Shown here piece after piece: positions 55,383 through 56,858 of a stretch of DNA of 64,000 nucleotides. A model generated the notes under the pieces. That model saw only the letters and a list, made by a program, of their open reading frames with translations, made no database searches and was not told the origin of the DNA. The number at the start of each line of letters is the position of its first letter. Positions within the stretch are counted from its first letter, which is position 1. This stretch comes from Halarcobacter ebronensis. GTDB taxonomy: Bacteria > Campylobacterota > Campylobacteria > Campylobacterales > Arcobacteraceae. Location: assembly GCF_013201825.1 (NCBI RefSeq), contig NZ_CP053836.1, positions 2,418,001 to 2,482,000 of the forward strand, read 5' to 3'. The position numbers and the translations under genes were made by a program.

Positions 55383-56423
55383 TTATTTATTAAACTCTGC
55401 TATTAATGCCTCTAAATCATCACCTGCCATTAAATCATCTGTACTAGAATCTCCATGTATATGTCTTGCAACAGCAACTTCTGGTCTTCCTTCTTGATCT
55501 TCAAATAGATTATTTAGATAAATTGTTAACTTTCTAATAACAGACATAACTCTTTCAATTTTTTGTCTATTAATATCATGATATTGCATCAATTCCATTG
55601 CCTGAAAAATCTCAGTATTTCCACTATTTAACTTTTCATTTGCATCACTTATATGTTCACTCATCTGTTTTGCAAACTCTAAATTTTGTTTAAAAGATTC
55701 TATATTAGGAAATTTTTGATTTAAAGAAGAGAGCATATTTATCTGTTTTTCACTAAAGTTACTTAAGGCTTTAATATCTTTTTGAATTGCATTGTTATAA
55801 TCTAAGATATTACTTAAAACATCAAAAATTTTACTAGCTTTTTCTTCAGAATCAGTTGCAACAGCACTTAATTGACTAACAACTTTAGTGTCCTCTTCAA
55901 CAGGAAAAGGAAAAACACCACTATTTATTTTATGATCTAAATCATCTTTATGAGATTCCTCTTTATTCTCTTTTGGTTTAACTTCTTCCTCTTCTGTTAT
56001 ACCATCAATTGAAGAGAGAAGTTCATCTATATTATCTGTAGAAATTTGTTCATTTGAAGCAGCAATAGTCTCTTCTATTGTAGGTTCTTTTTCCTCTTCT
56101 ACAACTTTATTTTCCTCTTCATTAGAACCACTAGCTTCTAACTCTTTAATAATGTCATCTATATTCGTTTCATCATTAGACTCTTCAGAGACTTCAACAT
56201 TTTCAAGACTATTTAAAATATCATCAACTGATTCATCTTCTTCTGCACTTTTGGCTTCTTCTTTAGATAAATCGCCAGTTTGTGCTATCAATGCATTAAT
56301 ATCATCTTCAGACATATTGTCCTGAGACTCTGCCTTCTCTTCTTCTGGTTCAGAGCTTGCCTCATCATCTTTAAACTCCAAACCATTCATCAAAGACTCA
56401 ATCTCTTCTTGACTCATACTCAT
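55383..56423 (-). CDS. CheZ-like CheY phosphatase with repeated CheY-binding-type motifs
   Basis: A 346-residue protein. The C-terminal half is helical and contains MQYHDINRQKIERV, in which D283 and Q287 have the D-x-x-x-Q spacing of the CheZ catalytic pair. The last residues (GDDLEALIAEF, about 334-344) resemble the CheY-binding tail of CheZ. The N-terminal 150 residues are very acidic and hold about five short motifs like the FliM N-terminal CheY-binding peptide: 4-14 (SQEEIESLMNG), 38-48, 65-74, 87-96 and 128-138. It lies between cheY and the flgF-like gene. It is the campylobacterotal (remote) CheZ type by family knowledge; activity is inferred. Confidence 0.8.
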   Translation of the reverse strand: MSMSQEEIESLMNGLEFKDDEASSEPEEEKAESQDNMSEDDINALIAQTGDLSKEEAKSAEEDESVDDILNSLENVEVSEESNDETNIDDIIKELEASGSNEEENKVVEEEKEPTIEETIAASNEQISTDNIDELLSSIDGITEEEEVKPKENKEESHKDDLDHKINSGVFPFPVEEDTKVVSQLSAVATDSEEKASKIFDVLSNILDYNNAIQKDIKALSNFSEKQINMLSSLNQKFPNIESFKQNLEFAKQMSEHISDANEKLNSGNTEIFQAMELMQYHDINRQKIERVMSVIRKLTIYLNNLFEDQEGRPEVAVARHIHGDSSTDDLMAGDDLEALIAEFNK

Positions 56424-56450: not shown

Positions 56451-56819
56451 CTATTTCAAAACTCCGTCTAGTTTCTCTTTTAACACTTCTGCATTAAATG
56501 GTTTAACTATATAGTTATTAACTCCAGCTTTTAATGCAGTAATTACCTCATTTTTCCCACCTTCAGTAGTAATCATGATTATAGGAGTTTTTTGATGTTT
56601 CCCTTCACTTCTTACTTTTTTGACTAGTTCTAAACCATTCATATTAGGCATATTCCAGTCTGTTAAAATGATATCATATTGAGACTCTTCCAATAATTTC
56701 CATGCTTTTACACCATCTTCGGCTTCATTGAAGTCTTCTTTCGTATAACCTAATTGCATGACAACATTACCAATAATTCTTCTCATTGTAGAACTATCAT
56801 CAACAATCAATATTTTCAT
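56451..56819 (-). CDS. cheY: chemotaxis response regulator CheY
   Basis: A 122-residue single-domain receiver. The acidic pair D7-D8 (ILIVDDSSTMRR), the phosphoacceptor D54 (LTDWNMPNMNG) and the switch Lys in NYIVKPFNAEV are in place. The start at 56817-56819 has AAAGGTAA upstream; a longer in-frame reading from 56849 adds ten non-family residues. First gene of the long flagellar block, directly before the CheZ-like gene. It signals to the switch via FliM/FliY/FliN. Confidence 0.93.
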   Translation of the reverse strand: MKILIVDDSSTMRRIIGNVVMQLGYTKEDFNEAEDGVKAWKLLEESQYDIILTDWNMPNMNGLELVKKVRSEGKHQKTPIIMITTEGGKNEVITALKAGVNNYIVKPFNAEVLKEKLDGVLK

Positions 56820-56858
56820 AACATTACCTTTTTTCAAAACTGTATTCAAAATCTTTTT

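Follow-up and report, generated by a model that had tools for sequence, protein, structure and literature searches.

The N terminus of FliM and the C-terminal tail of CheZ bind the same surface of phosphorylated CheY (CheY-P), and in Escherichia coli the CheZ tail motif serves to capture CheY-P for catalysis. Here we describe the product of cheZ in a 64,000-nucleotide stretch of the Halarcobacter ebronensis genome (the window), in which a series of short motifs of FliM or CheZ-tail type is arrayed along the N-terminal half of the protein. This half probably works as a disordered, multivalent capture arm for CheY-P that feeds an ordinary CheZ active site, so that one CheZ, the enzyme that switches off the swimming signal, may hold several CheY at once. 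The gene and its catalytic part are as follows.

55383..56423, minus strand: cheZ, 346 amino acids (aa), Campylobacterota-type CheZ with N-terminal motif array, by family-library matches
55503..55898, minus strand: CheZ helical hairpin, aa 176-307, predicted helices 176-237 and 242-307
55563..55577, minus strand: catalytic D283...Q287 in QYHDINRQK, from sequence, a family-wide signature

The open reading frame 55383-56423 starts with ATG, and its neighbors lie on the same strand, with cheY directly upstream, flagellar genes on the other side and fliG beyond. By sequence, the protein is a Campylobacterota-type CheZ. An earlier note on this DNA had proposed this identity, together with a D283/Q287 catalytic pair, and both proposals held: the two residues of the DxxxQ pair are exactly at those positions, within MQYHDINRQKIERV, and a hairpin is predicted. 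The C-terminal half matches the NCBIfam family Phos_CheZ at 1.9e-31 (109.5 bits), below the curated cut-off of 350. The match to Pfam CheZ (2.3e-4, 21.5 bits) is likewise under the gathering cut-off of 30.7, and such sub-cut-off scores are common to the other Campylobacterota CheZ tested too. The D..Q signature is found in 91 of 92 Arcobacteraceae CheZ and in 44/44 others. Profile comparison with the E. coli CheZ structure 1kmi gave a weak match (E 0.37), Foldseek searches of the PDB with the full and core models returned generic helical hairpins only and were uninformative, and a PDB sequence search with the full protein yielded nothing but spurious repeat-protein matches caused by the acidic arm.

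Five motifs precede this catalytic core and a sixth follows it; genus identity refers to 16 same-genus species compared with the window protein.

56385..56414, minus strand: M1 SQEEIESLMN, aa 4-13, FliM-type; 20.0 bits; genus identity 0.98; helix 5-13
56283..56312, minus strand: M2 SEDDINALIA, aa 38-47; 15.8 bits; genus identity 0.89; helix from 39
56205..56240, minus strand: M3 EDESVDDILNSL, aa 62-73, CheZ-tail-like; 6.7 bits; genus identity 0.76; helix 66-74
56139..56174, minus strand: M4 DETNIDDIIKEL, aa 84-95, CheZ-tail-like; 4.6 bits; genus identity 0.73; helix 88-98
56007..56042, minus strand: M5 STDNIDELLSSI, aa 128-139; 13.1 bits; genus identity 0.62; helix 130-139
55389..55427, minus strand: C-terminal tail motif AGDDLEALIAEFN, aa 333-345; 11.5 bits; helix 334-345; conserved

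The N-terminal motifs start S4QEEIESLM, S38EDDINALI, S65VDDILNSL, N87IDDIIKEL and S128TDNIDELL, and in the FliM register (E-I-D-A-L-L) their cores read I8-E-S-L-M, I42-N-A-L-I, V66-D-D-I-L, I88-D-D-I-I and I132-D-E-L-L. All five had been listed in the earlier note and are present, but the consensus offered there, S-x-E/D-D-I-x-x-L-hydrophobic, mixes registers and shifts M3 and M4 relative to FliM. The likeness to FliM drawn in that note is close for M1 and M2, whereas M3-M5 are at least as much like the C-terminal peptide of beta- and gammaproteobacterial CheZ, QVDDLLDSLGF, and M3 and M4 are nearer to the E. coli tail VDDLLDSL than to FliM. Its CheZ-like tail motif was confirmed as D335DLEALI at the C terminus.

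The motifs were scored with an independent position-specific scoring matrix trained on FliM N termini, on the N termini and tails of CheZ from other Campylobacterota and on beta- and gammaproteobacterial CheZ tails, among which the E. coli tail QVDDLLDSLGF was recovered; its training set held no Arcobacter CheZ arm sequence. Against the FliM-like sequence [S/T]-Q-x-E-I-D-A-L-L, M1, M2 and M5 are clear and M3 and M4 weak, M4 being outside the top matches of the matrix (its 4.6 bits come from the first version). Also with this first version, the window protein alone has two internal matches of at least 12 bits, versus 0.07 in composition shuffles (p = 0.0025). M1, M2 and M5 are thus individually convincing from the window sequence, while M3 and M4, because of their weak scores, cannot be claimed from a single sequence and need relatives.

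The relatives provide this support. Across the 16 species, identity was 0.37 in the linkers (the N-terminal half outside the motifs) and 0.79 in the catalytic core, versus 0.62-0.98 in M1-M5, whose core hydrophobic positions carry a hydrophobic residue in 94-100% of the species, although M5 is missing in one of them. When the M2-M5 windows are shifted circularly, just 1 shift in 142 gives a mean identity as high as that observed. M1-M5 therefore appear as conserved islands within hypervariable linkers; lack of conservation in close relatives had been named beforehand as grounds for abandoning the idea, and what was found is 62-98% identity.

A similar picture emerges from structure prediction. 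In an AlphaFold2 model of the full protein, a single chain modeled from a 12-sequence alignment, short helices at residues 5-13, 39-59, 66-74, 88-98, 130-139 and 334-345 coincide with the six motifs, linkers 15-36, 75-85, 99-128 and 140-157 have a predicted local distance difference test score (pLDDT) under 50, and two further short helices, 117-123 and 157-167, lie off the motifs. The hairpin helices have high pLDDT across most of their length, and an independent core-only model reproduces the hairpin. These two long helices agree with the core expected of CheZ, an antiparallel hairpin that makes a four-helix bundle in the dimer and carries D-x-x-x-Q on one long helix. Since the mean pLDDT of the full model is 64.8, the N-terminal arm is best taken as disordered with local helix propensity, with helicity predicted at the motifs.

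How widespread is the array? A first motif, MSMSQEEIE[AS]LM or MTQEELDALM, occurs at the N terminus of every CheZ with a start in the sample, 92 from Arcobacteraceae and 44 others, starts having been located by a loose pattern for this very motif (L024, the sole locus to fail it, starts at the edge of a contig). A single FliM-like motif at the N terminus and a single tail motif are general in Campylobacterota CheZ. The internal motifs are confined to Arcobacteraceae, whose CheZ are 271-427 aa long versus 218-266 aa for the others sampled. There were 93 internal matches of at least 12 bits in 92 Arcobacteraceae linkers versus 4.2 in shuffles, and none in 44 other Campylobacterales CheZ versus 0.5 in shuffles. 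Similarly, a profile built from the window genus and applied to 75 held-out proteins from other genera found 156 motifs, versus 23 in shuffles, and zero internal motifs in 44 CheZ from outside Arcobacteraceae. By this profile, the array extends across the whole family, although the test does not prove the function of each weak match. The reiteration singled out in the earlier note is therefore genuine and conserved, but what is general in Campylobacterota is the single N-terminal copy, the internal repeats being special to Arcobacteraceae. By the same profile, internal motifs number 0-5 per held-out protein and four in the window protein. Within its own genome, a search for similar arms returned only cheZ and a chemoreceptor-like frame of 968 aa that matched marginally (E 0.04).

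Some arrays carry traces of their origin. The near-identical tandem repeat DDILAGIDGIVDDE is present in three copies in the CheZ of locus L094, as the near-exact units SIDDILAGIDGVVDD, SVDDILAGIDGIVDDEPD and NMDDILAGIDGIVDDEPE, and in two copies in L096, while the L210 CheZ contains the tandem units STEDIDELLNTM, SNTDIDELLNSM and SDTDIDELLNSV with a repeated DIDELLN. Such repeats show that the motif is duplicated as a unit and that, in at least some lineages, the array grows by internal duplication. In an Arcobacteraceae ancestor, it would have expanded, in part through tandem duplication, from the one motif that Campylobacterota CheZ share at the N terminus. The L210 protein, of 427 aa, has five internal motifs by profile, and L091 and L014, on the same contig, have extra copies of SDDDINELLAQV and DEDIDQILKEI.

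Many genomes of the family contain, as a second match, a short CheZ-like gene of about 120-175 aa (G000:C1:931267-931578 on the plus strand, L053:1711-2085 and L213-L220), which in most loci examined adjoins truD with a chemoreceptor nearby. It retains QD..RQ and a DELEALI-type tail; the N-terminal MTQ(E/D)ELDA(L/M)M is retained in L214, L216, L219 and L220 and lost in the window's genus and others. Some Arcobacteraceae genomes are without CheZ (G022, G034, G300-G302 and others), and G022 and G034, the two of these in the FliM search, are also without FliM, which is consistent with loss of flagella.

The candidate ligand is encoded next to cheZ.

56451..56819, minus strand: cheYz, 122 aa from ATG 56819, cognate response regulator; Response_reg 2.2e-30

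Its start is probably this ATG and not the TTG of the mechanical open reading frame ending at 56849. In 45/45 loci (some loci being the same genome twice), cheZ is preceded by a CheY of 122-124 aa at a distance of 3-46 bp, and in all of them W58, T87, Y106, K109 and K119 (E. coli numbers) are invariant, with I95 replaced by V. By these residues, CheYz retains the FliM-binding face. In CheYz, G and K occupy alignment positions 91 and 92, whereas PMC9321776 lists K91 as conserved, which is probably a one-residue alignment difference. That paper places cheYz-cheZ in the flagellar locus of Arcobacter, reports five CheYs and an F7/F3 hybrid system, and argues independently that CheYz is the motor-binding CheY, and likely the FliM partner; the motif array goes unmentioned in the parts examined.

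From these observations we infer CheY-P binding, multivalency and a kinetic effect of the array. CheZ would pair with CheYz and use an acidic, disordered N-terminal arm of ~165 residues, carrying five short amphipathic CheY-P-binding helices of FliM or CheZ-tail type, plus the C-terminal tail helix. Each motif, acting on its own and with modest affinity, would dock on the alpha4-beta5-alpha5 face of CheYz-P, and several CheY-P could therefore be held per CheZ dimer; with motifs spaced 22-44 residues apart, there would be room for one CheY per motif. The held CheY-P would be passed to the catalytic tip (D283/Q287), raising local substrate, or be kept from FliM by sequestration. A bolder version is rather improbable, namely a trap in which a dimer, with ten arm motifs and two tails, captures many CheY-P cooperatively, making dephosphorylation threshold-like or condensate-type and spatially confined, and tuned by a copy number evolving at the family's swap of chemosensory kinase system.

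Several points weigh against a capture arm that feeds the active site. M3 and M4 are individually weak against the FliM/CheZ-tail profile, 5 of the 75 held-out proteins have no internal motif at 10 bits, and a fixed valency is non-essential since copy number varies. Moreover, deletion of the N-terminal region of Helicobacter pylori CheZ left phosphatase function intact, according to PMC11237671, which cites Lertsethtakarn & Ottemann 2010. Because that region is dispensable, a direct catalytic role is no more likely than capture, localization or buffering. The same finding favors the idea, unlikely overall, that the motifs bind CheY-P so that it or CheZ stays at the pole, or so as to compete with FliM, without feeding the active site, as does the Azorhizobium CheZ, whose N-terminal region is enough for polar localization (PMC7750401). 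M1 is also near the SQDEIDALL carried by FliM of the same genome. Nevertheless, the array belongs to the same polypeptide as the phosphatase core, and in E. coli capture by the tail motif serves catalysis.

It is quite doubtful that different motifs capture different CheYs, with one CheZ serving several pathways, even though Arcobacteraceae have five CheY-type proteins and an F7/F3 hybrid system (PMC9321776), the array occurs in the very family that acquired the F7 system, and the motifs are of distinct types (SEDDIN-type and [IV]DD[IL]-type): the near-identical copies in L094 and L096 speak against one specificity per motif. Slightly more doubtful still is that the helices bind another partner, ChePep- or CheO-like or another receiver-domain protein, their likeness to FliM being secondary. 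In Campylobacterota, ChePep and CheO are indeed interaction partners of CheZ (PMC9665402; PMC11237671), but the motifs match CheY-binding peptides of unrelated proteins, FliM and beta/gammaproteobacterial CheZ tails, above shuffles, and it is cheY that adjoins cheZ. Finally, chance matches in low-complexity acidic sequence are scarcely credible, for although the region is acid-rich (37% D+E), M3 and M4 are near shuffle level by the independent profile and two matches of 11-12 bits occur in an unrelated E-rich protein of the window, such an origin is disfavored by the family-wide excess over shuffles, the position-specific conservation and the near-exact tandem copies.

The array is a real, well-conserved elaboration of a known enzyme, and a capture arm offers a testable role for the N-terminal region of Campylobacterota CheZ, whose function is described as unknown in PMC11237671. 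Across Arcobacteraceae CheZ, the number of putative substrate-docking motifs at the N terminus runs from 1 to about 6, a natural series of one enzyme that allows direct measurement of how valency affects signal termination. No FliM-like motifs in CheZ, or multivalent CheZ, were found described in the open-access literature, a search that left out key H. pylori CheZ/ChePep papers and makes novelty provisional.

Compared with known systems, the window CheZ shares the hairpin core and the D..Q pair with H. pylori and other Campylobacterota CheZ (NCBIfam NF041271, Phos_CheZ), and likewise has their one N-terminal M(T)QEELDALM and DDIEALI tail motif; unlike it, the others sampled lack internal motifs and are shorter, as noted above. 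The catalytic residues of H. pylori are D189/Q193 (PMC11237671), those of the window protein about 94 residues further on, and from this position the H. pylori arm deleted in the study cited above is too short to hold the array. The CheZ of E. coli and betaproteobacteria share the DxxxQ pair, and their C-terminal CheY-binding peptide, VDDLLxSLGF, is resembled by M3-M5, but they have a single tail motif and no FliM-like N-terminal motif apparent in five starts. As for FliM, the core of its N-terminal CheY-P-binding peptide (SQxEIDALL) is shared by M1 and M2; each FliM has one copy and achieves multivalency via the ring, whereas the window CheZ has several copies on one soluble enzyme.
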